64,000 nucleotides of DNA from Sipunculus nudus (taxonomy: Eukaryota; Annelida; Sipuncula; Golfingiida; Sipunculidae). Both the position numbers and the translations under genes were made by a program. Numbering within the stretch: the first letter of the stretch is position 1; each line of letters opens with the position of its first letter. Positions 6,015 to 55,145 of the stretch are shown here, one piece after another. The notes below the pieces were generated by a model. The model ran no database searches, was not told where the DNA came from, and saw only the letters and a program-made list of their open reading frames with translations. The stretch covers positions 69,511,916 to 69,575,915 of the forward strand of contig CM049315.1 in the NCBI GenBank assembly GCA_026874595.1, read 5' to 3'.

Positions 6015-6147
6015 CCCTCAGTGGATTCAGTCCCGGTGAATAATTAGCATGTCTGACTACTGAACAGACAAACAAGGAGTTGTTGGTTCGGCAATGGCGT
6101 AGACAGGTAGACAGACCTGGGGGGGCATGGTCATATATATATAATTA

Positions 6148-16300: not shown

Positions 16301-16720
16301 TCTTGTATAAATAGCGAAAAAAAAATCTTGACCCGGGAATTTTGGTCGTTGTTTTGGTGTCTAAAGCGAGTTGGTCGATAGGCGAATTAGTTTTTACACC
16401 ACTGTCACTGGTTCTTTTGGAATGTCATTTGTTCTTTTGATGTAAAACCTTTTCCTATAATAACATTAACTGTGGGTACCCACTTCTTTTAGTTTAGATA
16501 TTTCATAGCTACAAAGATGCAAGGACCATAGTCACAGTCACCCTGCCGATTTCCATAGTAACACATTATCTGTGCGTGAGGGTGGAAACCTTCAGGAATG
16601 TTAATAACTTGGTTGAGATAACCTGTGCTAGTTTTGAGCTGTATGGATGCAGACTCTGATTCTACTGGCTAATCAGAGAAGGACGTAGGCCGGCATTTCC
16701 TTTAGAAGTAGACGTCAGAA
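13340..16720 (+). pseudogene. decayed F5/8 type C (discoidin) paralogue with four copies of its last exon
   Basis: The plus strand repeats the exon order of the 18.5-22.1 kb gene. The end of the first discoidin exon (about 13388-13459) reads EWWQVDLGQTHVIQR. It ends in an in-frame TAG where the other copy has a sense codon. The second exon (13681-13799) has TAA in place of the Tyr codon of YW, and its GT donor is lost. The last exon then appears four times, beginning near 14435, 15118, 15802 and 16498. Copies 1 and 2 share a small deletion that creates stops. Copy 4 (16498-16659) is a full 54-codon match in length, and copy 3 reads past the usual stop to 16005. No PAN-like exon was found upstream. 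Confidence 0.65.
14224..16720 (+). repeat. tandem array, about 0.68-0.70 kb units
   Basis: About 3.6 direct repeats start with gtcagagcaaggtcttgtat near 14225, 14910, 15593 and 16289. The period is 683, 684 and 696 bp measured at the exon. Each unit holds one copy of the final discoidin exon, with its acceptor and upstream intron. Copies are nearly identical except for short indels, so the amplification is recent. Confidence 0.85.
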
Positions 16721-24399: not shown

Positions 24400-25456
24400 A
24401 CATCCGGAACAAATGGACAAAGTGGATCGGTGCATCTCATCCCTGGAACGCCTTTCTCCTGTCCGACAGAGAAGCTAAACAGCGGGACCAAGCGGAGCGC
24501 TACAGATCAAAGTTAGTATCGGATTTAGTGTAAAGAACCTCGCTCTGTGACGGGTCCTCCCCAAAACTCCTTAAAACATGGTTGAGAGAGATAGATTCGG
24601 CTATAGACTATTCCACGGATAACCGCATAATACTGGAACTAGTAACAAAGACAGCTAGAGGTGAACTCCGCTATGAGATTGAAGCCATATTAAGCCTATT
24701 CCGGGCGAACGCTTAAGACGCGGATGTCGACACCCAGCTGGATCGCTTTGACTGCCCATGGAGGTTAAAAAAAAAAAACAGATAGGGCGCGCATTCCCCC
24801 CCCCCCCCCCCCGACACTGACAAAGAATTGAGACTGCAACTACCAAAATTAAACAATCACCCCACGAGGATTTAATTTCGTTCAACCGTTGCTTTCGCGC
24901 CGCAGCTGAAGAAGCCTATCCCCTCGCCGCTAGAAACCCTGATCAGCAAACCGCCATCGTTGAAAACTACTTGGCCTCACTAACCAACCAAAAAGTAAGT
25001 TCGCAAGTAGTTTATCAGGAGCCAGATTCGTTGACAAAAGCCATGGCTCTGGCGGCTCAGTACGATAAATGCGAAAGACAAATTTCTAACATGTTTACTC
25101 GCCCAGTAACGCACAGAGACCAGGAACCAAAGGACATCGGAGCAGTATCTGAAAGCCAACCGCTTACGAGCGACCAAGTAGGTCACATTATAGAACAGAA
25201 GTTAGCCGCCATTTTCCCTGTCGCTGCAGTGTCCGACTCACAGTCCGCACGGCATTACCCAAGCACCAGACAACCTGGGGTCCGCTGCATCAGTAACCCA
25301 TATGCCTGGACACCGGAAGGCCGCCCGAAGTGCTATGAATGTGGGAAGGAAAACCACATCGCAGCCAACTGCTTCCTCCGACTAGAGAGACAACGACGTG
25401 GTTATTACACTAGTCACAGGACTTCTGCACGTTCTAAAAGGGAATTACCGTCCTAA
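24400..25456 (+). pseudogene. Gypsy gag remnant with CCHC zinc knuckle
   Basis: The last part (24971-25456) is an open frame with a CCHC knuckle, C-x2-C-x4-H-x4-C, at 25331-25372. It follows a basic linker, as at the C-terminus of a Gypsy nucleocapsid. Upstream, frames are broken. Homopolymer A and C tracts near 24768-24812 interrupt the coding stretch. Gag normally forms the particle that packages element RNA. This copy cannot give a full-length product. Confidence 0.65.
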
Positions 25457-25534
25457 CTCTGCTACCTCTACCCGCCCTACTAACCCCAATGGTACATCTC
25501 GTTTAAACTATTAACAGCCGCGACACTGCAAACA

Positions 25535-25780
25535 GTGAGACCTCAAATAAAGTTAAACCTTCATCGCATCCCCGTTCGTTGTTTGGTTGACAGTGGGGCC
25601 TCCCGTAGCCTGTTGCGGCGTGATATATTCTTACAGCTCTGTGATAAATTTGGCAGGATCCCTATTCTAACTAAATGTAGTTCAATATTCAAATCAGTCA
25701 CTGGCCAACCTTCGACAGTCTTAGGTTCAGCCGAAATATCCATTGAGGGGATAGGTAACTTACAATTTGTTTTGTGGTAG
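25535..25780 (+). pseudogene. retropepsin-like protease remnant
   Basis: An 81-codon open stretch holds the aspartic protease motif LVDSGAS (Asp at 25589-25591). A beta-rich continuation ends GSAEISIEGIG. It sits between gag and RT as in Gypsy pol. The frame ends at TAG near 25778, just where the RT-side frame begins. Confidence 0.65.
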
Positions 25781-27240
25781 AAACACTGCCCAATCAAATG
25801 ATCTTAGGGACAGATAATTTACTGTTAGGCCGAGCTAAATTGGACTTCCATCACAACTCAATGCTATGGTTTAACCAACACTGGTCCTTCGTCGCCAACC
25901 ATGATCACGGCATAGCCGGTTTAGATCAGACGTATACGTCCTGTGCCAACTCAGATTTAGACCAAGTCATTAGCAAATATGTCGACGTGTTCTCCAGCCC
26001 CAATGACCCTAACGGTTTTTGTGATCTATTCCCAATGCACATTGAAACATCCGGCCAGCCCATCTATCAACGGGCCTACAGAGCTCCTCTCACCAAAAGA
26101 ATCGAAATTTCAAAATGCATAGACGAATTACTAGCACAGGGTGTTATTCGACCTTCGGCCTCGCCCTGGGCGTCCCCAATTGCACTTGTCGGAAAAAAAG
26201 ATGGCTCAACGCGTTTCTGCATCGATTATCGACGGCTCAATGCTGTGACAAAGCGTGACAGGTAACCCATACCAAGGATTGATGATATCCTCGATCAATT
26301 AGGGGGCAGCAACATTTTTTCAACTATGGATCTTTGCAGCGGCTATCATCAGCTGGCGCTCCACCCTGCTGACTCCGAAAAAACTGCTTTTACGTGCTAT
26401 CGGGGCCAGTTTGAATTCGTAACCACCCCCTTCGGCTTAGCAAACGCACCAAGCATGTTCCAAAGCGTGTTAGAAACCATGTTAAAAGATTTGTTAGGAG
26501 AATGTGTCCTGGTCTATATTGTCGATTTCATCATTTATAGCCGAGACATTGAAAGCCACAAATAGCATGTTGAATCGGTACTTAAGCGACTGCGTGCGGC
26601 AAATTTGAAACTCAAACCGTCAAAGTGCTGTTTTGCTAGCAATGAGGTCAAAGTGCTGGGTTTCTTGATAAATCAGCATGGTAGCCAGCCTGACCCGGAT
26701 AAAACCGAAGCAATCCTCAAAATTCCGCCCCCGACACATGTTAAGGGAGTCAGATCATTTATGGGAATGGCCAACTACTACCGCAATAGCGTCCCCAACT
26801 TTGCTCACATCGCCGAGCCTCTTAACCGGCTAACAAAAAAGAACCAACGGTTTCAGTGGACACCAGAGCATTCTTCTACTTTTGATAAACTCAGACATGC
26901 TCTAATATCCCCACCTATCAAGGCCTTCCCTAGGACTGATTTACCTTACCGCCTGTACACTGATGCAAGCGCGACTTGTGTAGGAGCTGTCCTATCACAG
27001 CTCCAATAGGACGGAACAGAACGTGTTGTACCATACGTTTCCCATCAGTTGGCGGTCGTCCAAAAACGGTGAGCCACAATAGAGAGAAAGGGCGTAAGCT
27101 ATTATTTACTCCCTGAATAAGCTCCGGCCCTACCTCTTTGGTAGCTCCGTAACAATCTTTACGGATCACAAACCACTTCTCTCTCCATTTAGCAAAAAAA
27201 AAGCAGTTGAATAATAAACTGCAACGCTGGGCCATTATTC
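25774..27240 (+). pseudogene. Gypsy reverse transcriptase and RNase H remnant
   Basis: RT motifs appear in order: GVIRPSASPWASP, RFCIDYRRLN, MDLCSGYHQL and FGLANAPSMFQ. The catalytic block reads YIVDF, where an Asp pair is normal, so the first Asp is Val (26521-26523). The connection and RNase H start follow (YTDASATCVGAVLS, near 26955-26997). In-frame stops occur near 26264, 26563 and 27007, mostly at positions that look like Gln or Arg codons changed to stops. RNase H continues in broken frame to about 27240. Confidence 0.8.
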
Positions 27241-27245
27241 TTTCG

Positions 27246-28002
27246 GAATATGATGCCAGCATACAATAGCATCAGAGCAGAAACAATGTGTGCGCCGATA
27301 TGCTCTCAAGAGTTCCCCAATCCATGCATGAGCAGATTAGTCTTATTGACGTGGACCACGACTGGGTGGACCCAACAGCGTATCCAGAATCCATTGCTTT
27401 ACAGCAACTCCCGTGTATGCTTGATGGTATTGATCTGCAGATTGTTGCCACAGGTCAACATACGGAATATCCGGAGTTCTTTCAAAGCGCGGAAACTGCC
27501 GAGGAGTCTGACTATATTGTCATTAATAATGTAATGTACAGCACACGCAGACCCCACAACACTGCCCCAGCATACCCGCGTCTAGTTCTGCCAACCCGTT
27601 ATGTTAACCAAGTCATAGATCGCGCCAACAAAGAGGTGGGGCATATGCCCTGCCTTATGACATTAAATCGCATACGGGAAGCGTACGTATTTCCAAAAAT
27701 GCGTCAACAAATCCGGGACCGCCTAAAAAAGTGCTCGACCTGTATAGCCAATAGCAAAAGACAAGATCATACAGTTATGGGGGACATGCCTTTGCCGGCT
27801 TCCCCAATGCAGATGGTGAGTATGGATCTCGTAGATCCATTCATACCCTCATGTAATAACAATAAATATTTTTTAACTATGATTTGTCACAAAACAGGGT
27901 GGGCGGAAGCATACCCTATACCCGATAAAACGAATGAATCCGTGTGGAGCATGTTCGCTAAATACTTTGTCCCGACCCATGGTGTACCCGAAGTCCTGTT
28001 CT
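27246..28002 (+). pseudogene. Gypsy integrase, N-terminal part
   Basis: A long open stretch includes an HHCC-type zinc domain ending LKKCSTC (about 27728-27745). The start of the catalytic core follows (MVSMDLVDPF, holding the first core Asp), then GWAEAYPI and HGVPEVLF. Similarity stops abruptly at about 28002, before the second core Asp. The frame then runs into the palindrome-rich block. Confidence 0.7.
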
Positions 28003-28018
28003 GCAAATTGCTAGCAAT

Positions 28019-28229
28019 TTGCGACCTGGGCGCCCAGGAGAGAGGGGCCTGGTTGTCAAAGTAGCAATTTGCTAGCAATTTGCTAGCAATTTGCGGATTT
28101 ACCAGAAAAAAATATTGCTAGCAATTTGCCGATACCCCCCGGCCAATTTTTTTTCGGGTAAATCCGCAAATTGCTAGCAAATTCTTACTTTGACACCCAG
28201 GCCCCCTCTCTCCTGGGCGCCCAGATCGC
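28019..28229. repeat. long inverted repeat, potential hairpin
   Basis: The left arm, about 28019-28092 (gcgacctgggcgcccaggag onwards), is nearly the reverse complement of about 28156-28229. The arms are around 70 bp with a spacer of roughly 60 bp, and each arm contains a TTGCTAGCAA palindrome. Confidence 0.7.
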
Positions 28230-29077: not shown

Positions 29078-30602
29078 TATATATATACAATAAATGCGCA
29101 TAGCAAGTTTTTCAGTGAGGATTCAAGCTTTGATAGACAATCGAGGCAAAATTGCTAAATAACTAGTAAATTGCGTAATTGGGCCGGACGTCACATGCAG
29201 GGAGGGCGAGAAAGTTGCAAAATTGCGGGCAAATTGATAGCAAATTGCATGATAGGGATGGCTGTTACATGGAGGATGGCAAAGTTGCTAAATTACTAGC
29301 AAATTGCGTGATGGGGACGGACATAACAGGATGAGTGAGAAAGTTGCAAAATTGAGAGCGAATTGCTAGCAAATTGCATGATGGGGACGGCTGTTACAAG
29401 AAGGATGGCAAAGTTGCAAAATTGCAAGAAATGGCTAGCACTTTGCGTGACGGCTGTTACAAGGAGGATGGTAAAGTTGCTAAATTGCTAGCCAATTGTG
29501 TGATGGGAACGGCAATCACAGTGAGGGCGAGAAAGTTGCATAATTGCTAGCCAATTGCTGGCAAGTTTGCAATAATTGCTTATAGCAAGTTTTTCAGTGA
29601 GGATTCAAACTTTGATAGACACTCGCGGCAAAGTTGCTAAATTGCTAGTAAATTGCGTGATTGGGCCGGCCGTCACAGGGAGGGCGAGAAAGTTGCAAAA
29701 TTGCGGGCAAATTGCTAGCAAACTGCGTGATAGGGATGTCTGTTGCAAGAAGGATGACAAAGTTACTAAATTGCTAGCAAATTGCGTGATGGGGAAGTTC
29801 GTTACAGGATGACTGAGAAAGTTGCAAAATTGCGAGCAAATTGCCAGCAAATTGCGTGATGGGGACGGCTGTTACAAGGAGGATGGTAAAGTTGCTAAAT
29901 TGCTAGCAAATTGCGTGATGGGAACAGCAATCACAGGGAGGGCGAGAAAGTTTCATAATTGCTGGCCTATTGCTAGCAACTTTGCAATAATTGCTTATAG
30001 CAAGTTTTTCAGTGAGGATTCAAACCTTAATAGACACTCGCGGCAAAATTGCTAAATTGCTAGTAAATTGAGAGATTGGGGCGGCCGTCACAGGGAGGGC
30101 GATTTAGTTGCAAAATTGCGTGCAAATTGCTAGCAAATTTCGTGATAGGGATGGGTGTTACAAGAAGGATGGCAAAGTAGCTAAATTGCTAGCAAATTGC
30201 GTGATCGGGCCGGCCATCACAGGGAGGGCGAGAAAGTTGCAAAATTGAAAGCAAATTGCTAGCAAATTGCATGATGGGGACGGCTGTTACAAGAAGGATG
30301 GCAAAGTTGCTAAATTGCTAGCAAATTGCGTGATGGGGAGGACGGTCATTACAGGATGAGTGAGAAAGTTGCAAAATTGCGAGCAAATTGCTAGCAAATT
30401 GCGTGATGGGGACGGCTGTTACAAGAAGGATGGCAAAGTTGCTAAATTGCTAGCAAATTGCGTGATGGGGACGGTCATCACAGGGAGAGTGAGAAAGTTG
30501 CATAATTGCGAGCAAATTGCTAGCAAGTTTGCAATAATTGCGTAATGGCATGTTTTGCAGTGAGGATTCAAACTTTGATAGCCACTCGCGCCAGTTTGCT
30601 AG

Positions 30603-30944
30603 ATACTCATGCTTCAACAGGGAAAAACCGACAGTTCCCCGCCTATATGAGTGGGGAACAACATGTGGCTGAAACGTTAGCAGCTCATAGGATTAGCATC
30701 AGTACAGTAACTGGCTATTCCCCTTTCTTTCTGCTATACGGGCGTCATCCAAGGGTGCCACTCACTCGGCTCTTACAATCCGCGTCCACAAACACACCGT
30801 TTGGTAATCGCTTGGATGATACTGCGCAAATATATCTTCAGGCACATAATAATTCCCTCGAAGCACGAGAGGTTAACCGCCAAAGCGGATTGGACAATCC
30901 TAGTTATTCTAAAACAACTCCATTCCAAACAACACAAAATAAAT
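30603..30944 (+). pseudogene. Gypsy integrase, C-terminal part
   Basis: The open stretch resumes with integrase-like sequence. HVAETLAAHRISI is followed by TGYSPFFLLYGRHPRVPL, the conserved segment after the catalytic core of Gypsy integrases. It continues about 70 codons to a stop near 30943. The core between the first Asp and this point is missing. Confidence 0.7.
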
Positions 30945-33760: not shown

Positions 33761-36700
33761 TCAAGGCGTCTGTGCTTCTCTCAGTTTGTGAAGAACTGCT
33801 GGTAGAGCGTCCATTTTCTGCCTCACTTTTAAAGGGATATGATCATTTTCCTTAAAACTGAAATATGTAAAAACACAAACAAATAAAATACTGTCAGAAA
33901 GTTACATTCTGAGTAAATTTATATTTTCATTTTCGTTTAATTGATACTATCATTTAAAAAATCGTGACTTCTACTAAGCCTGATTTAATATTCTAAAATA
34001 AAACTTATTTAAAGTTTAAAAAGTAGGCTCCTTACCCAGATCAAAATCCGAACTTTATACATCTATCTCTGGGAATACAATATGGCATTAAGTATACAAA
34101 CCTTGAGGCGTTTCCCTTTGGACACCTGTACTGGATGACCATGGGGTTGGGTTTAAGTGAGAGTTCTGACCCGTCATCGAACTGAACAGACACTTCCTTG
34201 TTTGACCACTGAGTTCCCCAACCGATACCGGGGACGAATACTTGGCAGAGCATCCTTGGTGACGGTAAAGGGAAACTGTTACAGCCAGAGGCAGACGACA
34301 ATGTTTCATCCTGGTTTAGCGCCATTTCAACAGACAACAGTGTCTCATCCGGTGTAGCAAATATATCTGTCCTTCCGTCGATTGGGTTGCTGCTTCTTGG
34401 GTTTTCTTTCACAGACGACGAACCTGATGAACTGGACATAGACTTCGCAATGACATGGCATGGACGTCTGGATAGAAAGAAAGAAATAATGGTGATTAGA
34501 GACCAATTAACCTTGTAAAAGTAAAGGAATAAACCTATTATTGCATTTAATTGTTCTGAAGGCAATCTATAATATAAATTAATCATATTATTTATTACGT
34601 ATTATTACATATTAATATTTAGAACGTATTTATTTTTTAGTTATGACTCAAACATATAAATCAGAACTTTCTCAGACTAACGGCCCACTTATATGTGTAT
34701 AAATCTATTTGTAAAGTCATCATATAGGATAAGATATCATTTATTGCCAAAGAGGAATTTGAATGTTTAACAACTGACATGCAGCACAATTAAGAAAAAT
34801 AATACTGTGAGAATTAATAAGCATATGATTAATGACTAGAAGATAAATATAAAAAATTATATATGCTTATATATGCACACGCCCTGTACTTGGCATGAAT
34901 GAGTCCCAGAATACGCAAATCTCATGATTCTTACCTCCCGATGACAGCAGGGAAGCAGGTCACATCTGATCTTGATCCTTCGTGATCGCCCATTGACGTC
35001 ATCAGGTAAACGAAGTCTAAACATTTCTGACGAAACTGAAACAATACAGATAATTAAATACAAAAACTGTTTGTTTGCAACATGAATTCCTTTAGTCTTT
35101 TTTTTAAATATGTTTGACCTTCTTTAATATTATTTCATCTATACGACACAGACACTCTTGGATAGGTTTTATTATATATCACATAAAAATATGATTGAAT
35201 TACAATATAAAAATATCTTAATGTAAAATTATTTTAAATCATTTTTATGCATATTTACCTTCATAGTGTGTGAAAGGAGTTGTCTGGTTTTAAGATCCAA
35301 TTTTTCAGAACTTGATTCAGAATCAAACTTGAAAGAAATTCCGTCGCTCTGGGTGATGCTCGTGACGTCATTATAACAACGGACCTTGCCTCCGCCATAA
35401 AACGTCGCATCAAAGTCACGGTTGTCGTTCTCCATCAACATACACTTGGCCTGGTCCGTGTACATGGTCACTTTTGGGGTCTTGGACTTGACCACGTCAA
35501 CGAATCTGTAGGAAATGGAAACAACAAAAATATTTTGAGAAAAACTTATAATTTGTACTTAACATCGTATATTTGTCATATACTTTATTCTTTATTTTTC
35601 ATGATATATATTGGAACAAAATGTAAACGCAGTTAAATAAGTTGAACGGAGGTTAAAACAGTTAAATAATTTGAAAACAAGTATTTTTTCCATTTCAAAA
35701 CACAAGATTTCTATAAAATGAAAACACAAAAAAAGAATGTCACAGGATCACCGTACTTACCTTGCCGCATGCTGGTACCTCTTCCAGTATTTCTGGGGCA
35801 GCCTGTCGTGGCTGTACACCCTGACGGAGCCTGCTGCAGGGCTGGCTGGACTGTCACTGACTGTCGCGTTGTCACACTGGGGCTGATAGAATTGTATCAC
35901 GTGACCATCTGGGCTGATCTTCATCACTTCTCTCACGATCTCCAGGTCTTGTATTATTCTGAGGATCTCCAAGTACACGCTATAGTCGTCTGTGATCGTC
36001 AGCTGTTGTGGAATGGAAATGACTCATAAATGTGATATCTTGTATTTTATTCTTACTACATGCCTCCCTCCTCTGTTACATATGAGTGAAAGGTCAGGAA
36101 GGGTTACATAATAAAATTTTATATTTCACAGTTTGTCTATTTATCGGTTCGATTCGGTTGTCTGTTAGTAGTTTGATCTGCAATTGATTTGAATTGTTTC
36201 AAAAAGATATTTCAATAACTGTATTATTTAAAAAGTTTATAGATTAAATTCTGCATTTATTATGTCACTGTAGGTATATCCTCATCGCTGATTATAACAA
36301 ATAACGGTAACTTACCACGACGTTACGTATTTTCTGACGATAAGGCTTCAGACGAAAAGACGTCCGAGGAGGAGTAGGACAACCGATCACGTGACCACTG
36401 GTGACGTCATCGGCTGAGGATGAACGCTCTTCTCCTTGACTGTGACAGTTTACCTAAAACATGAAGTTTAGGATACCAGTATTTTAAAATGCGTCGGATA
36501 TCGGATGAGTCACTCATATCTAGCGATGATTTATACTCAAATTATATATTATTATACGCAAATTTAGACACACTTTTAATTTCTCTCATTAATGTATTTA
36601 ATTTCAGTATTCAAGCTAAATTTGACATAAAAACTGTGATCAGTTTTCATGGTGGAAAATGAAGTGTAGGTGTATTTGTAGCCCCGAAGTGATGTATTAA

Positions 36701-36802
36701 AAAAAGTGCAATAGTGAATCTTTTTATGGCCAAACTAAAATCAAATTCTCAGTCTATATAAACATAATCACTGAGAGCCCTTACCATATTCTGGACTTTC
36801 AT
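33761..36802 (-). CDS. gene A: kinase-less PLK4-like polo-box protein
   Basis: Seven exons are joined in consistent phase by GT-AG introns: 36785-36802, 36316-36453, 35761-36002, 35259-35505, 34935-35035, 34102-34467 and 33761-33857. They total 1209 nt, or 402 residues. Residues 7-52 end [11 protein letters not shown], the entry to PLK4 PB1. Residues 53-133 ([24 protein letters not shown]) complete PB1, and 133-249 ([20 protein letters not shown]) form PB2. A Ser-rich linker reaches about 320. PB3 ([20 protein letters not shown], then YRCPKG and a C-terminal helix) fills 322-402. In PLK4 these boxes dimerise and bind centriole scaffolds (CEP152/CEP192 type, STIL). No kinase domain is present and no upstream exon carries one. 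ATG 36802 is the first after a TATA-like box. Exon limits are by eye. Confidence 0.8.
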
Positions 36803-36925
36803 TCTTTTTCCCTGATGATAGAAGTCCCTTGAGGTATTAAGATAAGACCTTAATATAAAATGACCTTGTAACGGCTGTAGCAGAATAATCGAGAACAACT
36901 GATGGACTGTGAGGAAACTTGAGTT

Positions 36926-36933
36926 ATTATATA
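36926..36933 (-). promoter_or_regulatory. TATA-like box of gene A
   Basis: TATATAAT on the minus strand lies about 125 bp upstream of ATG 36802. No other ATG occurs between them. The third copy has gaataaaaag at the aligned position, so the box is not conserved there. Confidence 0.4.
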
Positions 36934-38060
36934 AGTTAAAGTTAATAAACGTGTTTCACCTCGTGTTTTACCCTGACCCGCCCGTTCTTGTTTGATTATA
37001 ATCAGGTCAAGTGATCACCTGACTCGGCGAGGAGTGACTGGTCGAGTATTATTTAATTAATATTAATCAATGCAGACTCGTATAGGGCGAGTAAGGGCGT
37101 AGGAACCAACCTGAAAGTAATTAGTGGGATTAAAAATGTGATATATTTAATGAAGTCACAAGATGATGACGATGATGGTCATGATAATAATGATAAAGTA
37201 CATATTATTTAATATTTGTTAAATAATATTTCATTGCAAAAAGCTACAAAAAAGTTTTAGGAAATAGGACAAGGTGCTGCATTAATTTCTGCAATGAATT
37301 TTTTTAATTACCATTGATTCTTTCTTCTCCGTCTTCTTCTTTATATTATTATTATTATTTTTCTTTCCTGTGCCTCGGGAATGTTCTTCCTTCGCTATGT
37401 GGGCCGGTGAACTACCGTCTGGTCAACCACCGGAACTCGGTGAGGTTGTTTGCACCTATTGAACTCTGATGAGTTGTCACGCTCTGGGGGCGCCCCCTGT
37501 CCGCATAAACCGAGAAACTTGTTTATACATCATTGTCAGGAACATCATGGGCGAAGATATACTTTATTGTTCTAAATCCCCTCATGAGGCGTGGATACCT
37601 GATTAAACAACGGGACAGTCTCGGTCGGGTTGCTGTCAACTTCACAATTACAAACCGTTATATACATATTGGTATATGATCAACATTTTTAGCTACTATC
37701 GGCCTCGTCACCAAGCGGAGTTCAACCAAGAAGGCCACCTAGATCATGTGACATAAGCATGTTTGACCCAGCTTACATTGTGCCAGACAATCAGTCAGAC
37801 AGAAAGACAGACAGACAGAACGGACCGTATCAATGTATGCAGCAGTTTGTTTCAGGTGTTTGTGGTAACATTAATTGATCGTTACAGGTGTCTTCATTCT
37901 GCGCTAGATTATATTATGATATCTTGGTACACCTCATGAGCTGTAGGATGATTCGTTGATTTTAAACATTGGTGGCACTGTTTATTGAAGAGAATGGACA
38001 ATAAGAATAATACGTGATTATATTATATTTTATTAAAGGGACAAAGGGTAATTCCCTCCG
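36934..38060. other. 5' flank of gene A; no other gene seen
   Basis: The first 150 bp resemble the flank of the third copy (41060-41300), with shared words such as ttaaagtta...aac and gacccg...gttt. Beyond that it is unique AT-rich sequence with a short gacag repeat near 37796-37817. Confidence 0.4.
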
Positions 38061-38310
38061 TCAGGATGATATGCGTTCATTCCCGTTAGTGTGTGTGTGT
38101 GTGACGGTTCACAACATAACTCACGTAATCCCATTAAAATTTCAGGGCACCTCGCGGACAGGCCAGTGATGAATCGATTACGTTCTTGTGTTGGTACGAC
38201 TTAAAATCCTGATCCAGAAAGGACTTCCAGGAATATTCACAAATGTGTAGTCACCAATGCACGATTGAACATGGAAATATGGACAGAATAAGGGAATGCA
38301 AACACTTGCT
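38060..38310. repeat. partial copy of the dispersed repeat unit
   Basis: It carries tatgcgttcattcccgttag, cacaacataactcacg, gatgaatcgatta and cacaaatgt in the same order as 890-1090 and 52210-52400. It is more diverged than those two and lacks the rest of the unit. Confidence 0.6.
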
Positions 38311-39360
38311 GGAGAAATTGTGCACCAACGAACCTGGGAATGTGGGGTCAATTAGTGAATGAGAACACTGATTGTGGAGTACCTCTTATTGAGATTGTAT
38401 ACATGCGGAGGCCTGCATACCTGAAAATGTATTTTTGGTGTTGTAAAGTGTTAACCTGTTTAAATATGTCAAGACCGCAAGGTTGTGGGTTCGCGTCCCG
38501 TTCTGACGACATTCAGCGTTTACTAAAGGGACAACTCTCTCCAACAAAGAGTGAATTGGAACTGATCATGGGCGGCAGGCAAATGTAGAACGAATAAAAA
38601 TATTACTTTGATGATTTTCTGTTTCGATGATATTCAATTGATATATTTGGTTGGGTTCAATAAATGAAGGCATGAAATCCCAAGGTACACATATGAGGTG
38701 TTATCGCAAATGACTACTACGTGAATTTAATCGATTTTAATTTAATCGAATTTAATTTAAATCGATTTAAATTTATTATAATCGAATTTAATTTAATCGA
38801 ATTTGATCTAATTGAGGAATAAATAAGTTTTGTAATAATATTTAAAAAAACAACATGTACATGTAGTGAACGCAATCATCATTTTTTCCTGATCGTTTGT
38901 GGTTACTAGTTTTTCAGCTCATTGGTCAGTTTATTTATGGATATTCTGTTAACCTTTCCAAGATGACCAACCGTCACGGACAATATCTGCAAAATCATCA
39001 GAGGATTAAACACACAGACGCCACCTGTTGTGATTGATGTTAAATACTGGCACCGGTAAGGTCAATGGAGTATCAGTGTAATGGGGGGGGGGGGGGGGGA
39101 GTACTTGTTCGCAAGGAGCCAACAACACTCTGACACAGTAGGTGTGAGATGTTTATATTCATCACAACTGGTGGCGCTGTCACCTGTGTTTTACAGAATG
39201 CAGAGTACTTCATTGTTTTACTTTTGGAATCAAAATAGCTGTAACAATGCCTCTTGACAACTAAACATGATCTTTTTTTTATTTTTACTTAAGATGTGGT
39301 CTTTATTCCTTCGACATTGGTCAGTTCCCTTTCTTGTACAATTTCAGACCTGTTTGAAAA

Positions 39361-39421
<61 letters not shown>

Positions 39422-40020
39422 GTATATGGAAGGCAAAATGATATCTTACTCATTTATTTGATTTGTAAATAAAGATTTTTATTTGTTTATATTTTAAATA
39501 AACAACAGTATATGCTTTTCCCGTGTGCGTGCACATCCTTATCGAACACCACACGGACTGAGTCTTGCCGTCTGAAATTTCACACATTTGATATGATCAT
39601 TTCAGGAGGCTTATCCAGTCTGCGTTTATGCAATGATCATACAGTGTAAATAAACATTTGTTCAGCCTTGCATTCTATTAGGACCAGTCCCTGTATCGGT
39701 CACACTGAGGCTATTTTCTGCCTTCTTTACCAAAAGCGCCTTGGGACGTCCAACTAAACCCAAGACATGGTCAGCCTTGTGGAGAACTGGAGATATTTTC
39801 TCTACTCTTTGACCCAGCAGACCACGTACTGACGCAGCTAAATTACGATGGACCGGTGGCTCCGCCTGTGGTCGCCTTATGCATAATGGCCGCCTGTAGC
39901 TTCCGTCAGCTCATCGTCAGACCATAGGCTGCACTGACTGACCTGCCAATACGTCACGGTCGGTCGTGGTGAACAAATTGACTTGAAACAATGCCTTGTG
40001 GACTTTTTTCCGCGCCTTGT
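38310..40020. other. no gene seen; microsatellites
   Basis: The stretch holds a local degenerate atttaatcgaattta repeat (about 38730-38820), a G run (39086-39099) and (CT)n at about 39365-39417. The end nearest 40020 resembles the 3' flank of gene A. Confidence 0.4.
39365..39417. repeat. (CT)n microsatellite
   Basis: About 26 uninterrupted CT dinucleotides. Confidence 0.9.
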
Positions 40021-40994
40021 TTAAGACGTCTGTGCTGTCCTCAGCTTGTGAAGCACTGCGGGTAAAGTTTCCATCTTCTATCTCACCCTCAGCGGGATAC
40101 AATCATTTTCATTAAAACTGAAACAGATAAAAAAAGAAAATAAGCTGCATGTCAGTTTTCAATATATGGTGAACAAATAATCAGTTATAAATACTGAGAT
40201 AGAGTATTGACGCAATGATTCTTATCAATCTGTTTTATTCTATTATACTCTCAATTACCTTTAGTTTTTTTCCAATTCGAACAAAATCTGTATCTACCTA
40301 TATTTTACAAATGTTATATCGATAAAAAAGTTGATCGAGCTCAAATTTGACAATTTTTTAGGCTCCCGTAATGTGTCAGATATAGGCTTTGAAATTCTAC
40401 AGCTACATTTAAAATGCAATGAAAAGAAGAACTTACCACAAGACTGCAAATTTTTCTGCCGAAAAGGCTTCAGGCGAAAAGACGTGAGAGGAGGAGTCGG
40501 GCATTTGTCAACATGACCATATGTGACGTCATTCAATGAGGACGACCACCCTTCTCCCTGGCTGTAACTGGTCACCTGAATAAAATATGAAAAGAAAATT
40601 GAGATGTATGATATTATGGAATAATTCAGATGTCACGTTTTTAAATAGTGTTTAAAATAATTATATCATAAGATAACCCTACATTTTCATTTAAAACAGG
40701 CTGCGGGATGATATCAAAACAGCGGAATCTTTTTCCATGTAAATGAGAAACTGAAAATCTCCTCTTCGATTAATTTATTTAAATTTATATATACTGCATT
40801 AATTATATATTTATTTTAAAATACTTAACATGATCAATATCTGAATGCTTTTAATAATTTAATAATCTTATCGCTTTGCTCCGTAAATTAGGTTTTAAGG
40901 AATTAATTGTGTTCTGAATTAACTTATAAAGCTCATTTTGTTTTGTAAAAAAGTCAACACTTCAACCATATTTTGAACTCCCATTTTTGTGTGT
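40021..40994 (-). pseudogene. third polo-box gene copy, lacking its polo-box exons
   Basis: Three exons correspond to genes A and B. The six-codon first exon is at 40977-40994 (MGVQNM, donor gttgaa). Exon 2 is at 40437-40575 (DVTYGHV, TSFRLKPFRQK) and is one base longer than in gene A, so the frame shifts before the donor. The last exon is at 40021-40117, exactly 97 nt as in both genes, but with an in-frame TAG at 40078-40080 where gene A has Gln. Only about 320 bp separate exons 2 and 7, so exons 3-6 (PB1, PB2, linker, start of PB3) are gone. The 5' flank resembles that of gene A. It is clearly a dead copy. Confidence 0.8.
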
Positions 40995-41960
40995 TGTTTC
41001 TATACCAAATGATTCTGTTACAGCTACAGATTGCGATCAAGTTATATATAATTACAACGACTGAGGCGGGTAGTTATATCCTTAACTGAGCTCTCGTCCA
41101 GAACATCTGATGGATTCTGAGGACCGTTCTTTTTATTCACATTAAAGTTAAGCAACATGTTTGACCTCGAACGCCCCGACCCGTTTGATCTTGTTTCGTC
41201 AATCACGTGACCTCTAGGGTTGATCAGTCGGGTGTATCGTTGTAGAGTAACAGTAGTTAACAGTAATCAGATCAATCGCGGCGAGCGGGCAAAGACGGAA
41301 AATTCATCCTGGCCGTAATTAGTGCACATGATAAAAAAAATTTCTTAAACGACAGTGGTGATGATATCACTGTTTTACTCATTACTTTTTGTTTTCTAAG
41401 TCTTTATCCTCAATTTACTTATCAGAAATACGACGACTGGAGTAATGAAAAGTGTAATGCCAGGACGGCTATGTAATGAAAATGTTAATGATAAAACGGC
41501 TAGAGTAACAGATCAGAACCTTGAGAACAATACATGAATGTTTTAAAATTTAATTTAAAGAAACAAGAGATCAGTAAATATTAATAGATACGTTTTTATG
41601 GTATCATTATATTCATATAATTTTTTTTGTATTATTTTGAATATATAAACAAGCTTATGTAATTTAAAGAGCTCAAAGATTAATTAATATGAATACTACT
41701 TGTCAAGTTTTACCAGTCTTTGTTCTTTCTGATATGTGAGCAGCAGTTCTCTCACGCGTCAGATGACCAATCATCCATACATACATGAGACAGTTGCCTG
41801 GTGAAGTCATGCAGGGGTGACGTGTTTGTGTGTCTGTGGTACCTACCCACGCTTTTCTATGAAATTTGATACAAATATCGGCAGTGTAAACATTCAGAAG
41901 TGTTTAGATTTTAGAAAAACTCCTTATATAAATTAAACATTTTCCTAATGTATATCTTCA
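40995..41960. other. 5' flank of the third copy; no gene seen
   Basis: It holds a promoter-like flank homologous to that of gene A (to about 41300) with CACGTG at 41204-41209, then AT-rich unique sequence. Confidence 0.35.
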
Positions 41961-41978
41961 TGTATGGTCTAAAGTATA

Positions 41979-42212
41979 TTGTCACGGAACCCCTCTGTGG
42001 ACACGCTGTGCGTTTTCGCCTTGAATTGCCGGGAACGTTGCCAGGAATATCCTTCTGGGGGTCCACTTCCATATTTTTCTATAAATCATGAGAAATTAAA
42101 CATTTGCACCAGAAGGGGCTATTGCAACGCCATTTATCATAGACTACGCGCACCATGTGTCATACAGGAGTACTCGATCAATGGAAAACCTGGATATCGA
42201 AAGTCAGATGTC
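41979..42212 (+). other. possible cysteine-rich exon, unrecognised
   Basis: An open stretch contains seven Cys in about 50 residues, including LNCRERCQEY, ICTRRGYC and RAPCVIQEY. It ends at a good donor, ataacg|gtaagc (near 42220). No convincing acceptor or start lies upstream, since a stop precedes 41979 and the frame begins with TTG. I recognise no family. It could be one exon of a secreted protein or chance. Confidence 0.2.
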
Positions 42213-42909
42213 GGGATAACGGTAAGCGCTAGTTTGTTTATCTTTCTTGTCAATCAGATTGTTGCACTGGAGGGGTTTCACACTCAAAAGCCACAACCTT
42301 ACCCATTTAAAATATGAGCTGCTACCAAATCTTCGGTCCAGTACCACGGAATCACAACGGCAGATAACACTGAGGTCACATTCATGAGTAACACAGGCTT
42401 TAATATATCAATATTCAACGTATATGAATGATTCCACTCTTAAACATTCACAGCTTGTATGTTTCCACAAATAAATTAGAATTAATTGCTATACCACTTA
42501 GTGGCATTCACGGCAGTCATGCAGGGTTTTGGTAAAAACTATAAGCTACAAAGTGCATCTTGTCGTTTCGTTTAACCATGTTTTATTTGATCCTTGGGTT
42601 TAGCTGCATCTTTGTATTTGTTGACAGCTGAGTTTGTGCACCGGCCAGGGTCATTGTGTAGTGTGACAATAGGGGTATTCAATAAGTGTGCTCTAGGTCA
42701 AGTTATACAATGGTAATTGTGTATTGTTCCCAGTTTATTTAGTGTTTAGTGTCCTCATGTATATAGATGAGCCTTAGTAGCAAAACGGGTCCAAGGCCTT
42801 GTATGTGGCTTATGAACATGGGGAGCCTTCAGGGTAGAAGGGTATTTAAAAGGGTCGCATACACAGATTGGGGATTCAGACTTCAGTGTCCAGAAGCCAG
42901 CCTGCCGCA

Positions 42910-43275
42910 AATTTGTGGATCAGTGCCGCCAATCGGGACCAGTGCCGCCACTTATTGTCCAGTGCCGCCAGTAAGGGTCTGGTGCCGCAAGTCGGGTCCA
43001 GTTCCGCAGGTCGTATCAGGTACCGCAAGTCGGGTTGGGGTCCAGTGCCGCCAGTTGGGGGTCCAGTTCCGCCAGTTGGGGTCAAGTGCCGCCAGTCGGG
43101 GTCACGTGCCGCCAGTTGGGGTTACGTGCCGCCAGTAAGGGCCCAGTCCTGTCGGTCAGGGTCCAGTACAGCCAGACAGGGTCCAATCCCGCCGATCGGG
43201 GTCACGTGCCAACAGTCGGGGTCCAATCCCGCCAGTTGGGGTCCAGTGCCGCCAGTCAGGGTCAAGTACCGCCAT
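42910..43275. repeat. about 20-bp GC-rich minisatellite
   Basis: Roughly 18 imperfect copies of gtccagtgccgccagtcggg, 19-21 bp each. The GC content contrasts with the AT-rich surroundings and keeps several frames open (up to 158 codons), which I treat as artefact. A short, older version lies at about 22730-22850. Confidence 0.85.
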
Positions 43276-44575
43276 AACTTTGTCAATATAAGTCCTTTCT
43301 TCACAAATTTAGGCTCAATTTCTTTCTATAGATCTTCTCCATAAACTGGTCTATTCGAATGGTCTAAATCTGGTGTCACTTTGTCAGTATGCCTGTCTGT
43401 TTGCCAGTGATCTTCATTTTTGCACCTGTGATGGTTCTTGCAACTTAGAACTAGAAGTCTACAAGCCGCAGTTTTGCAGGAATCCCTTTGAAACTGGTAA
43501 ATCTTATGTCTCACAGTAATATCTCAAAAGCGATTTTTTTCATTTGCGGAAAAGGCCATTAGGGGGCGCTGTAGTCGAAACACTAGAACATATATATTTT
43601 TGGCCATATCTCCAAAACTATAAACCATACCTGCATATAAACTATATATCATTTTGTTTCTCTTTACCTTCTGCATCAGTTTGGCAACTCATCTGTAAGC
43701 TCAGGTGTCTCATTTTGTCAGAATGTCTGTCTGTGTGTGAGTAGTCTCCAATTTTGCCTGCTTGCTTGTTCTTGCATTATATAATTAGCATTCTACAGGC
43801 CAAAGTTTTACATGAATCCTTTTTAAACTTGTACATCTTTTGTCCTTAGCAAAAATCTCAATAGTGATTTTAGATTTTCGTAATATAGCCGCTAGGAGGC
43901 GCTCCACTTGAAACACTACAACATTTTTTTTTGCAATATCTCCAAAATTATTTACCTTACCCACATAAATTATAGCTCATTTTGTTCCTCTTAAATTTCT
44001 CCAAAAGCTTATCTAATATCTAATCATCTGAAATCTCAAATGTGTCACTTTGTCAGTATGTCTGTCTTTTTATCAGTTGTCCTCGATCTCGCCTTCTTGC
44101 TTGTTTTTGTATTAAATTTAGCATTCTTAAAGCATTTATTTCCTACTTCATTGTACGTGGAATCTTTTATATGCGTACTTTTCAAAATCAGCTATTCCTT
44201 TTAAGAGCCCCATTATCTGGCAGATGCTCGATAATGATAATATTTCCCCGTCGGTCCGTTCATCCGACCGTGTCATCTTATACAAAAACTGTTCCACCAA
44301 CAGACAGAAACTTCACAGAGGATTGGCATCCCGTGAGAGGGTTTTCATTAGGAAACTAAAGACCAAACAAGTCTAATATGTGAAAAAGGTAACCATTCCA
44401 GAATTCTTTTCGTTGAATTTTATTATTTTTGTAGCATTTACCCTGAACCTTGTTTTTATTAACATGAAATAGGGCTTCACATTCCGCTTTTGATGTAGGA
44501 CACTCCAAGTCCATTCACATTTTTTTTTCAAGGGATCGGAATTGAAATAAAATATCCGTCTTATCTGTCCGTCAG

Positions 44576-44576
<1 letters not shown>

Positions 44577-44621
<45 letters not shown>
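44577..44621. repeat. (CT)n microsatellite
   Basis: About 22 CT dinucleotides followed by caaagtaatacaatattatc, as at 23050. Confidence 0.9.
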
Positions 44622-44624
<3 letters not shown>

Positions 44625-45230
44625 GTAATACAATATTATCTTTGAGTTTATTATAAATACTTTAAAAGTGAACAACATGCATGTTTGCAATACGTTTTAT
44701 AAGCATTGTATGTTTTTGCCCTGCATAATTGAAAATAGATAAAAAAAAAAATAAATAAATAAATGTTGAAAGCTAAATAATTGGAAAACCATAAATGATA
44801 GAATACCATTCATTTTACCGTCTGTTTAGAAGTGTATAAAGTAATATTTGTAAACCAGTCAAACTGTTTTTTTTTCTTAAAGAACAAACGACCCATACAT
44901 GAAACTCGTTCTTTTTTCAGTTTTCCATTTTCATAAATACAGAGCATAACAACAGACACCGGGCCATCTATGCCATCTTGGTGTTGTATGTACATATGGT
45001 ATCCCATAACAGCAGCTCAGCTCAGTTTTTATCAAAGGTGGATCCATGTTGTGTTTTCAACTACAGTCTTCCTTCATTTACTTCAGAGAAGATTACTAAG
45101 CCCCTGAGTCTCGCTGTTTGAGTTCTAAAGAAGACAGAATCTGTCTAGTGAAGCAGTCTGTGTGGTTCCTCTTTAAATCTAAATCCTACTATAATTTACG
45201 GATGAGGGCGCGATCATCCCCGGAGCGTTC

Positions 45231-45234
45231 CTCC
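45231..45234. other. uninterrupted paralogous target of the Gypsy element
   Basis: cggagcgttcctccggcttct reads straight through here. In the other copy the same words are split by the retrotransposon with CTCC duplicated. Confidence 0.75.
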
Positions 45235-45599
45235 GGCTTCTACTTCGATGATACGGATCTAACGGTCACCAGACTTTCTCCGCTGATATAGATCCCGTCT
45301 TGAGACTGTCCTCAGAGTACATTTCCGTACCCTTATAATAGCTCGAAACCACTCATTGTAGCTGTCGCTTTGGGCAAGGATGTTATAATTCATATGTCGG
45401 AGAGGTACACATTGTACAGAACATTACCTAAGTAAGCGGCTCACTCCACTTGCCTCTCTGTTTTCGAAATACAGCCTTCTTTGGAACATGAGAAGTTCAT
45501 GGTGCCCCAAGGGTCTGAATTCTTTGGTCATCTGTTCAGAACTAAGCCCACTCCTGTAGGCTTCTTTGTTTCATATACCCCGGTTTTGTATATTCTGGT

Positions 45600-47570
45600 T
45601 CAAGGCTTGAGCGATGCTTCAAGTTTGTCAACGACCTCTTGCGCCGCATCAAGTTTGTCTTGGACGTCCGAGGGAATTAGGTCTTCCTCTGTGTAACTGA
45701 AACGAAAACAAGCAATCATCGTCATTAATCTAACGGCGCTGTCACCGAAAGAAAGGGCAGAGGCATCATCACCTTGTAAATAATCAATATTGAACGCTAT
45801 ATCAGCAATAGTCTGTTGAATGTTATTACATATAATGTTCGTGTTCAGTATAAATGAACCTTGTATCAGGAAGTCGTGTTTATTCGATATATGAAATTTT
45901 GTTTTATTAACCGATCTCACGATAAAATCATGTTATCAGCCGGATACCGGTACATTGCTCTAGATGCCGAAATATATTACGGTCTATTTATTACGAGTTA
46001 TGTCGGCCCTGTGCCTCCGTATCAGCCCGTTAGAATGCACTGTTTTTGTATTTTCTCGCAGTAATCTTGTGTAACATAATTGTCGATAAAGCTCTTTTTA
46101 CCATTACTTGGTAGTTTGATTAAAAAAAGAATATGAACCTTTTTGATAAAGTCAGGTAACCATATCGGATCTAGGCACTGTTCATTTCGTACCGACCCTC
46201 AGGCCAATAGAAAGTAAAGGCAAATAACATATATTTCATTTAATCTTTTATACTCAGAGTCCTGTTTAACATGGCAATGCAATATTAGCTTTATTTGTAG
46301 GCCTTCACGTACCTGGCGCGGAATCCTTTAGGACACTTGTATTTGATGACCTTGGGATCTGGTAGGACAGACAGTTCTGAGCCGTCATTGAACTGGATCA
46401 CTACTTCCTTGTTGGACCACTTAGTTCCCCATCCAATGCCAGAGACGAATATTTTACACAAGATTATTGGCACCGCGGCGCGTCTTGCGTTGAAGCGTGG
46501 AGAAGCAGACGTTGTTGAAGCTGGTGGCGTCCCCTGGTTTGGCGTTAAGGAAGCAGACGCCGCTTCCGGTGCAGAAGACGATTGTTTGGTTGTTGGCTTC
46601 ACCTGGGATTGCACTGTGCGGTCATCTGGCTCAGGCGCGGTCATCTCTCTCAGGACAGACGAAAGCGACGAACAGTCAACTGGCGTGCTACTTCTCGGAG
46701 AAGGTAATTGTGACAAAGAATGTGGCCCTAGATATCCACGCGAAGTATCGCTGCTGGTTTGGTAAAGCATGGCGGCCTCGGTGTTGTTATTATTTCGTGG
46801 TGAAGGCGCTGGACTGGACGATTCCTCTTTGACCGGTGACAGTTTCCCTTTTGAATGACTGATGTGATCACTGCCAGGACGCCTAAATTTTAAGGAAAAT
46901 AATTAATAAATACCTAATTGTGAATGTTTTACTAAAAGTACACCGATCAAGAACGTCTTTATTGGAAGAATGAAAAGGGCGAGCCTGAAAAAATATTACA
47001 TATATACATGTATATATAACTCCGCAGAAAAACAACACTGTAAATTTACAACAGTCTGTTTCACGGGATGCGACCCGATCATCAGGTGAATGTGGTTAGA
47101 ATGAAGCTAACGGCTGGGTTTGAAAAGCCGAGACTTTACAAGATTACGAGATTATGCTTTGTACGATTCGGGGGGGGGGGATGTGAAAGACTGACACTGA
47201 TCCTATTGTCTTTGGGGCACAATAGGATTGGTCGGGGTACACGTGCGATACTGGAACATAACAGGGCAAAGAGGTTTGTTGTTGTTTATGTTTAAATATA
47301 AAAATATATAAAAGATATGTTACCAGGATGCTCAATTAGCATAGTAAACTGATTTGCAATAGGGTCCTGGAAGCAGTTAACATATCAGTAGTATACACAT
47401 GATATAAATACACGATATACTATGAAAATACACAATATATAATATATAAGGCAAATATACAATATAAAGGCCAAATATACTATACTATACTCATACCAAG
47501 TGGACTCCACTCGATAAACTCACCATAGGGTATTGGAGGGTAATTTACAACGGAGGGTAACTCTGCCTTC

Positions 47571-47639
<69 letters not shown>

Positions 47640-49349
47640 ATATTATGAAGTAAATGTCGTCGTTATCGTTATATTTTCCGCTGGTATGAGTTTATTTTAT
47701 CATATAAACGACCCAATCACAATTTTATCAGTTAATCAACTCACCTTCCAATTACCACTGGGAAGCACTGTCCGCCTGGTCTGATGGATTCGTCTCTCCC
47801 ACTAGAGGTCAGCACATGCACAAACCTTAGGCATCTCTCCCGGCACTGATAGAACGAGAGTAAAATAATGTTTGATATGTTACTTTATAGTTTCATTCTT
47901 ACATTTTGTTCAATATTGTATGTTATATTTTGTCAATAGAATTAAAATTTTCTCTCTTAAAATAATAGCTTAATTATCCTTTAATCATTGTTTACCTGCT
48001 ATCTTTGCTATATACATTATGTTTTCCTTTATAGGATCATTCTTATGCAACTCTTACAACTTTAATTAACCATTTAATGCAAACAAATGTGTCATATTTT
48101 GTAACTATAATGGATACATTGTTTTGGTTTTACCTGCATTGAATACCGGTACAGCTTCCGGTTTCTGGGGGTTATTTGTTGGTAACTGGATACGGACTCC
48201 AAAGTAAAAGAGCTTCCGTCGCCAAAGGTGATGCTCGTGACGTCATGACTACAGCGGACCTTGACGCTGTTATAAAACTCCACCTCAAAGTCACAGTTGT
48301 CGTTTTCCATCAGCATACACTTGGCCTGGTCCGTGTACATAGTCACTTTTGGTGTTCTCGACTTGACAAGTTCAACAAATCTGTAACATTAATTAGAAAT
48401 GAATTGATATGCAACGGAATCCAAAAGCACAAAGAAAAATATAAATCTTTTAAACGAATTAATCTGTAAGAAATAAATTTTCTTTACTGAATGTAAGGTC
48501 CATTATATATACTCTATCTTATTCTTTAATCGTTCTTTTTAACATTATCACCTTGCTGCATGTTGGTACTTCTTCCAGTGTTTCTGGGGCATCCTGTCGA
48601 AGCTGTACTTCCTGACAGAGTCTACTGCAGGGATGGCTGGACTGTCACTGACTGTCGTGACGTAACACTGGGGCTGATAAACCTGTATCACATGACCATC
48701 AGAGCTGATCTTCATCACCTCTCTCACGATATCCAGGTCCTTTTTATTTTTGAGTATCTCCAAGTACACGCTGCAGTCGTCTGTGATCGTCATCTGTTTT
48801 AGAATAAAATTGTAAAAACAAAGTTGTACGGAACTCATTTACATATATTCTAATATTATATCTTGAAATAAAAAAAAAGAAAGAACATGGAATGCAAATA
48901 TAATTGTGGAATATAGACTTATATTGATATTTATCCAATTTGATTTTATTGTTCGCTTACCATTGTATTTCGTATTTTCTGACGTATAGGCTTTAGACGA
49001 GAGGTGTTCAGAGGAGAAGGGGCACAATAGCTCGCGCTCGTCACGTGATCACCTGTGACGTCACTCTGAGACTTGACGCTCTCCTTCTTCTGGTCACTCT
49101 GAATAAAACTCTCCCCGGTGTCTCCCTCAGTATAACCTGTAGACTGGGTATTCTGACATTCTTGTATATTCTTCGTATTGTCGTCTTCACTTGGATGATA
49201 GAGCTGAAAAGAAATAACGAATTTTATTATTTTATGTGCAAAATTCTTGATTATAGTAAAATTAATTTCCGCATATGTAATAAAACGAGATAAATGTGGA
49301 AAGATTTTAAAATCTTCCAGTTGATACGTACCATGCTGAAAGCACCCAT
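45600..49349 (-). CDS. gene B: kinase-less PLK4-like polo-box protein
   Basis: Seven exons with GT-AG introns and consistent phase: 49332-49349, 48961-49203, 48552-48793, 48134-48380, 47745-47845, 46313-46882 and 45600-45696. They total 1518 nt, or 505 residues. Exons 3, 4, 5 and 7 are exactly as long as in gene A. Residues 7-87 are a polar leader ending [14 protein letters not shown]1 covers about 78-168 ([14 protein letters not shown]) and PB2 168-284 ([23 protein letters not shown]). A long Ser/Pro/Thr-rich linker runs to about 420, then PB3 ([20 protein letters not shown]) and a C-terminal helix to 505. Exon 3 is about three-quarters identical to that of gene A. There is no kinase domain. 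PLK4 polo boxes bind centriole scaffold proteins, so a scaffold or competitor role is inferred. Start and splice sites are by eye. Confidence 0.8.
47577..47637. repeat. (TA)n microsatellite in an intron of gene B
   Basis: About 30 TA dinucleotides lie within the intron between exons 5 and 6. Confidence 0.9.
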
Positions 49350-49489: not shown

Positions 49490-49497
49490 TATTTATA
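49490..49497 (-). promoter_or_regulatory. TATA box of gene B
   Basis: TATAAATA on the minus strand lies about 141 bp upstream of ATG 49349. With initiation about 30 bp downstream, ATG 49349 is the first start codon in the transcript. An E-box CACGTG (49511-49516) sits just upstream. A second TATA-proximal ATG at 49474-49476 would fall before the likely start of transcription. Confidence 0.5.
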
Positions 49498-49510
49498 TCG
49501 TTCTCAGGGT

Positions 49511-49516
49511 CACGTG
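49511..49516. promoter_or_regulatory. CACGTG E-box upstream of gene B
   Basis: The palindromic CACGTG is about 14 bp upstream of the TATA box. The same hexamer occurs in the 5' flank of the third copy (41204-41209). This is a motif only. Confidence 0.3.
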
Positions 49517-54769: not shown

Positions 54770-55145
54770 TTAGATTCCCTGGACTCGACACCCAGAAAAC
54801 AGTCCTTGGACTCGATACCAAGAAAACAATCCAAGGACTCGATACCCAGAAAACAGTCCCTGCACTCGATACCCAGAAAACAGTCCCTGCACTCGATACC
54901 TAGAAAACAGTCCCTGCACTAGATACCCAGAAAACAGTTCCTACACTCGATACCCAGAAAACAGTTCCTACACTCGATACCTAGAAAACAGTTCCTACAC
55001 TCGATACCCAGCAAACAGTTCCTACACTCGATACCCAGAAAAGTCCCTGAACTCGAAACCCAGAAAACAGTTCCTTGACTCGATACCCAGAAAACAGTCC
55101 TTAGACCCGATACCCCAAAAAAGTCCCTGAGCTCGATACCCCGCA
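54770..55145. repeat. 27-bp minisatellite
   Basis: About 13-14 copies of cactcgatacccagaaaaca-gtccctg with small variants. Because the unit is nine codons long, the plus frame repeats DSIPRKQSL and the minus strand also stays open. No flanking exon supports translation. Confidence 0.85.

Follow-up and report, generated by a model that had tools for sequence, protein, structure and literature searches.

Genes built from PLK4-type polo boxes, with no kinase domain, form a large tandem family in the genome of Sipunculus nudus. The window analysed here is a 64-kb stretch of contig CM049315.1 (C10:69511916-69575915, in an assembly of 1.43 Gb and 153 contigs), and two of its genes, A and B, belong to this family. 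We show that the family consists of tandem-amplified, PLK4-derived genes, comprising the end of the linker, the CPB (PB1-PB2) and PB3 behind a short first exon of their own, and that it lies beside a single complete PLK4. The presence of kinase-less PLK4-type genes had been predicted from the letters of the window alone, and this observation is confirmed for A and B. The corresponding features are as follows.

33761-36802, minus strand: gene A (subfamily A), PB1-PB2-PB3, 402 amino acids, no kinase (splice sites, open frame, Pfam)
36785-36802, 36316-36453, 35761-36002, 35259-35505, 34935-35035, 34102-34467 and 33761-33857, minus strand: exons 1 to 7 of gene A
45600-49349, minus strand: gene B (subfamily B), PB1-PB2-PB3, 505 amino acids, no kinase (splice sites, open frame, Pfam, PDB)
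49332-49349, 48961-49203, 48552-48793, 48134-48380, 47745-47845, 46313-46882 and 45600-45696, minus strand: exons 1 to 7 of gene B
40027-40984, minus strand: dead copy C, D type, comprising an exon-1-like stretch at about 40967-40984 (MGVQNM), an exon 2 (40453-40575) and an exon 7 (40027-40119) that holds one stop

The original prediction had described two seven-exon minus-strand genes with conserved exon lengths. Both were recovered, with seven exons apiece, no stop from exon 1 onward and GT-AG borders at 100% of introns, and exons 3, 4, 5 and 7 have identical lengths in A and B (242, 247, 101 and 97 nt). Matches above the Pfam cut-off were obtained to Plk4_PB1 (PF18190; E-values 8e-28 for A and 4e-33 for B) and Plk4_PB2 (PF18409; 8e-29 and 2e-30). 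Over PB3, POLO_box matches stay below the cut-off in both genes (0.011 in A, 0.010 in B), and this stretch of A also resembles C5orf34_C, again below the cut-off (0.004). With B as query, the PDB returned the human PLK4 CPB (4n9j, 1.3e-45) and PLK4 PB3 (2n19, 1.6e-8), and the fold of the proteins is assigned from these matches. The claim that a six-codon exon stands where the kinase would be is borne out by an 18-nt exon 1 in both genes; with the human PLK4 kinase as query, no kinase was seen in the 64-kb window (best E-value 1.7). No upstream kinase exons overlooked in the original prediction were found in the window, nor, the canonical gene excepted, in the fetched loci or among the listed genome-wide matches inside the two clusters.

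Between A and B lies the predicted dead copy, C, which retains remnants of exons 2 and 7 with one stop; no matches to exons 3-6 were found in it. It was placed in subfamily D by eye, from the likeness of its exons 1 and 2 to D members, and this subfamily has open members elsewhere in the genome. The description of two intact genes beside a dead copy is thus right in that all three are present, but A and B are really 2 of 51 detected loci, in three subfamilies.

A profile search of the contigs yielded at least 50 matches to PB2 and at least 48 to PB1, both counts being lower bounds. Joined within 1.5 kb, these matches define at least 52 loci, namely the canonical gene and 51 others, of which 45 have both boxes, four PB2 only and two PB1 only. 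The interval C10:68.45-70.04 Mb contains 44 of these 51, and C16 the other seven. A search of the genome for a separate kinase-bearing PLK4, proposed earlier as a check, found a single ordinary gene at C10:70.1137-70.1217 Mb, beside the C10 array, laid out as six recognisable kinase exons, a long PB1 exon and then PB2 and PB3 exons. The human PLK4 kinase gave 107 listed matches across the genome (142 of 288 candidates scored). Of the kinase matches listed, just six fall within C10:68.4-70.2 Mb, all of them belonging to canonical PLK4. The next one along C10 lies at 70.43 Mb and shows 33% identity, and C16 has a single listed match, at 22.13 Mb, a long way from the family loci of that contig. 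No kinase was found in the 45 fetched loci, the canonical gene excepted. PLK1-type polo boxes gave four matches in two places only, C14:64.30 and C4:80.20 Mb, each near kinase matches. Among the polo-box genes found, expansion is confined to the PLK4 type and, there, to kinase-less copies. No earlier description of such a family was found among the papers listed from the open-licence PubMed Central (PMC) literature, a weak negative.

Two blocks of C10 recur in the same order, 68.588-68.627 Mb as 68.981-69.020 Mb and 68.831-68.925 Mb as 69.305-69.399 Mb, and two loci, L002 and L003, are 99.6% identical across 3.4 kb. Because of these repeated blocks and this near-identical pair, about eight loci may be haplotype duplicates. 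Between C10:69.44 and 69.93 Mb, family members also stand in pairs about 12.3-12.9 kb apart, a spacing that suggests a repeated two-gene unit.

C10:69445638 and 69457925: pair of an A and a B member
C10:69547150 and 69560025: pair of an A and a B member
C10:69787052 and 69799804: pair of two D members
C10:69918022 and 69930342: pair of an A and a D member

Gene models cover 26 of the 51 loci, among them A and B, and come from a builder that penalised stops, so that its splice choices favour open frames and the counts of open copies are biased upward. Exons 2-7 are open with GT-AG throughout in 18 of the 26, one of which, C10_69386, was followed only to exon 6. The other eight (C16_58970, C16_58986, C16_39612, C10_70037, C10_70042, C10_69787, C10_68924 and C10_70002) are damaged through stops, frameshifts or the loss of exons or splice sites. 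At C10_70037 (L025, C10:70037195, plus strand) the sole clear lesion is a lost exon-4 acceptor, the other exons being open, and C10_70002 (L044, C10:70002036, plus strand) is of the B type with a frame break in exon 6. Four partly read loci (L002, L003, L007 and L008) have matches to exons 2-6, accompanied in three of them by exon 7.

The family falls into three subfamilies, A, B and D. In a tree of the 18 open copies together with canonical and human PLK4, the family is united with a bootstrap of 100 at the end of a long stem branch; the subfamilies receive 99 (A), 98 (D) and 100 (B), and the grouping of A with D 61. CPB identity is 0.43 between the canonical gene and human PLK4 and 0.49-0.53 between the family and the canonical gene, while mean identity among the 18 open copies ranges from 0.51 to 0.85 by segment.

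Compared with PLK4/Sak, represented by the canonical gene here and by human PLK4, the family likewise has the CPB, PB3, a serine/threonine (S/T) cluster and K711, and it has introns at the 3/4, 4/5, 5/6 and 6/7 exon borders in common with the canonical gene of this genome. It differs in having no kinase, little linker, no DSG string and dozens of copies, as well as an extra PB1 intron, the six-codon first exon and one linker intron fewer, the last point inferred from a frame break. The extra intron is apparent from the profile matches: canonical PB1 is a single exon from profile position 2, whereas family matches begin at positions 18-24, the exceptions being two matches from position 10 and a pair of fragments from 47 and 51. 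DSG is the phosphodegron motif of the PLK4 linker; the linker region of the canonical gene has two such strings, within an open frame of 154 aa, and the 18 open family copies, A and B among them, have none.

The first exon, which in A and B has 18 nt and closes in phase 0, recurs across the family. Its features in the window, with those just upstream, are listed here.

36785-36802, minus strand: exon 1 of A, MKVQNM, donor GTAAGG; a like exon at 20 of the 26 modelled loci
49332-49349, minus strand: exon 1 of B, MGAFSM, donor GTACGT; one of the three B-type peptides in all five modelled B-type loci
36927-36933, minus strand: TATA-like string lying 131 nt ahead of the start codon of A, a motif only, with no chance control
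49492-49516, minus strand: CACGTG (167 nt) and TATAAA (148 nt) ahead of the start codon of B, motifs only, with no chance control

The exon encodes MKVQNM or MKVLNM in A-type loci, MGVQNM, MGFQNM or MEVQNM in D-type loci and MGAFSM, MGAFSR or MGAFRR in B-type loci. A chance ATG is unlikely, since a phase-0 six-codon exon with a GT donor recurs at 20 of the 26 modelled loci, a count of kin rather than of independent events and made without a shuffled control. Six modelled loci do not have it; four are damaged, and in the two open ones (C10_69918 and C10_68475) the first ATG is gone by a one-base deletion and an in-frame ATG is kept as the last exon-1 codon. This exon may or may not derive from the first exon of canonical PLK4. 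The candidate for the latter (11 codons, phase 0, C10:70121658) is one of eight listed and was picked by position and likeness to human PLK4. Upstream of the 20 first exons, CACGTG occurs in 14 and a TATA-like string at 100-170 nt in 19, in AT-rich stretches and with no chance control. The upstream stretches of A and D are alike (score 53, shuffled maximum 31). A promoter common to all subfamilies was rejected, B against A or D not rising above background, and one common to the family and canonical PLK4 is unsupported (scores 20-23 against shuffled maxima of 28-33). Likeness among the upstream stretches of A copies continues into intron 1 and therefore reflects common descent, not special constraint.

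The original prediction also suggested that selection keeps these genes and proposed comparing nonsynonymous (dN) and synonymous (dS) divergence between A and B. Pairwise (NG86), dN is 0.36 and dS 1.17, a ratio of 0.31 and not near 1. Under a codon model, the same ratio (omega) over the tree is 0.318 for the CPB (18 genes) and 0.268 for PB3 (17 genes), and within subfamilies the CPB gives 0.330 (A), 0.290 (D) and 0.272 (B). Selection on the genes is thus upheld across the open copies, with omega at 0.27-0.33 and omega=1 rejected at log-likelihood losses of 82.2 (CPB), 42.0 (PB3), 34.9 (A), 14.5 (D) and 19.6 (B). Two damaged C16 copies served as a control: their exon 4 gives a pN/pS of 0.040/0.043 (about 0.9), on few changes (8 and 2). 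Among nine intact pairs, the exon-4 ratio is below 0.6 in seven, about 0.73 in one and above 1 in one. Within segment limits chosen after the alignment had been viewed, PB1 and the PB2 base are constrained in all three subfamilies (pN/pS 0.18-0.35; 0.18-0.26 in A and D), while the PB2 tip is free to diverge in A (0.71) and D (1.02) but not in B (0.17). Such protein-level selection suggests that many of the copies are in use.

Human PLK4 phosphorylates S698, S700, T704 and T707 in its own CPB, and the isolated CPB clusters once phosphorylated in vitro by PLK4, as reported in PMC6823436. The positions of human S698, S/T700, T704, T707, K711 and N717 are conserved in 18 of 18 open copies, and the S/T cluster and K711 are also present in the canonical gene. 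PB3 is described in PMC4530586 as binding the STIL coiled coil via named hydrophobic residues; it is present in all 17 open copies followed to the end, and the family positions matching these STIL contacts are mostly hydrophobic.

Given the conservation of the S/T cluster, K711 and N717, together with the published CPB clustering and PB3-STIL binding, we consider it roughly an even call that the family proteins act in trans as polo-box adaptors or decoys on the PLK4 pathway. The conserved CPB would allow them to dimerise or co-assemble, and they may dock on the centriolar scaffolds CEP192/CEP152 and, via PB3, on STIL. Their conserved S/T cluster could be phosphorylated by canonical PLK4, and they would then enter or cap PLK4 assemblies, adding no kinase activity and free of the parental degron. 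Overall they would serve as dominant-negative-like adaptors that buffer or limit PLK4, probably in certain tissues or in germ cells, and subfamilies may differ in the extent of clustering that their PB2 tips allow. A laboratory PLK1 construct, with polo boxes expressed without the kinase, reportedly acts against its parent kinase, to judge by the title of the report; that construct was made in the laboratory, and for natural family genes we infer the same idea. An elaboration of the adaptor or decoy reading, which we think unlikely, is that these are a growing set of natural PLK4 decoys in conflict or specialisation at centrioles. In that case a constrained docking and phosphorylation base would tie each copy to the one PLK4 kinase, and diversification of the PB2 tip, which drives the clustering of human PLK4, would let copies sort into different assemblies and either adjust or sabotage the duplication of centrioles in germ cells.

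Several observations weigh against an action on PLK4. Clustering of human PLK4 depends on four hydrophobic PB2-tip residues, according to PMC6823436, and these are only partly kept in the family: position 750 is F, I or V, 752 L or F and 761 L, I, M or F, and position 758 (human V758) is S in nine of ten A copies and F in the tenth, Y in B and F or S in D. The contact between STIL and PB3 is apparently not conserved in flies, as indicated in PMC5374404, and need not hold here. Three A copies have a CPB with a net charge of 0, compared with +2 for canonical PLK4, 8 of the 26 modelled loci are damaged, and the intact pair with an exon-4 ratio above 1 (C10_69799 and C10_68533) has 19 nonsynonymous and 4 synonymous changes in that exon.

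It is somewhat unlikely that the family has left centriole control, its polo boxes having been put to another use as scaffold or peptide-binding modules (ciliary, germline or immune), as happened to other polo boxes in PLK5 and kinetoplastid kinetochore proteins. PLK5 consists of a PLK1-type polo-box pair and a truncated kinase, and like the family it has polo boxes without a working kinase, whereas the family matches the PLK4-specific models PF18190 and PF18409, has PB3 and is large and tandem. Membership of PLK5 was rejected, the matches going to the PLK4-specific models and PLK1-type boxes occurring only at C14 and C4. Kinetoplastid kinetochore proteins with divergent polo boxes are said to exemplify polo-box reuse outside an ordinary Polo kinase; they come from a different lineage, and the likeness is by title only. 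Reuse would suit the divergence of the family, which has a long stem branch and, in the CPB, an identity to canonical PLK4 of 0.49-0.53, with mean identities of 0.51-0.85 by segment among the 18 open copies. It would also suit the dozens of copies, atypical for a core centriole gene, in a genome with PLK1-type boxes at two places only. Yet the PLK4-specific phosphorylation cluster and K711, intact in 18 of 18 copies, are hard to square with PLK4 no longer acting on these proteins.

Genetic conflict, in which copies compete with or suppress one another at centrioles, for example in sperm formation, and thereby drive copy number and PB2-tip diversity, seems to us quite unlikely. It is favoured by the tip ratios of A and D (0.71 and 1.02) against 0.18-0.26 in the PB1/PB2 base of the same subfamilies, and by turnover, with dead copies and near-identical repeated loci; but the B tip is constrained (0.17), the segment limits were set post hoc, and relaxed constraint yields equal numbers. 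We find it highly doubtful that the family is mostly non-functional, a truncated PLK4 having undergone runaway duplication in tandem and its copies now decaying, with few under selection. The 8 damaged loci of 26, the 6 of 51 loci matched by one polo box only and the builder's leaning towards open splice choices all point that way. In a neutral simulation (three genes, 400 runs each), however, about 1-2.5% of frames were stop-free at 0.1 substitutions per site, and 18 of the 26 models are open at a median fourfold distance between open copies of 0.39; omega is also below 1 inside each subfamily. An assembly artefact, with uncollapsed haplotypes inflating the number of loci, is extremely improbable: the two blocks recurring in order and the 3.4 kb of near-identity between L002 and L003 account for at most about eight pairs, the same median distance exceeds ordinary allelic divergence, and the three subfamilies are clear.

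Other features of the window include a broken Ty3/Gypsy-like retrotransposon on the plus strand (24821-28061 and 30524-30943), in which pieces of zinc knuckle, reverse transcriptase, RNase H and integrase occupy different frames, and a 59/129/415-bp repeat array at 29.1-30.5 kb that lies, by eye, ahead of a further integrase-like end. At 14255-16617, a unit of about 683-696 bp stands in tandem in about 3.5 copies, 85-100% identical, and its 109-aa open frame has no Pfam match. A 26/52-bp repeat array of about 1.4 kb (4601-6015) is a source of long spurious open frames, and a 27-bp tandem repeat at 54776-55141 has about 14 copies.

PLK4, which sets centriole number, is regarded as one gene whose dose is critical. 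With its one PLK4 kinase alongside some fifty kinase-less polo-box relatives, many of them maintained by selection, a genome of this kind would offer a natural experiment on how polo boxes by themselves recruit, buffer or block PLK4, and on what makes the PB2 tip important for clustering. Should the copies prove to be germline genes, they would also indicate evolutionary conflict over centrioles.

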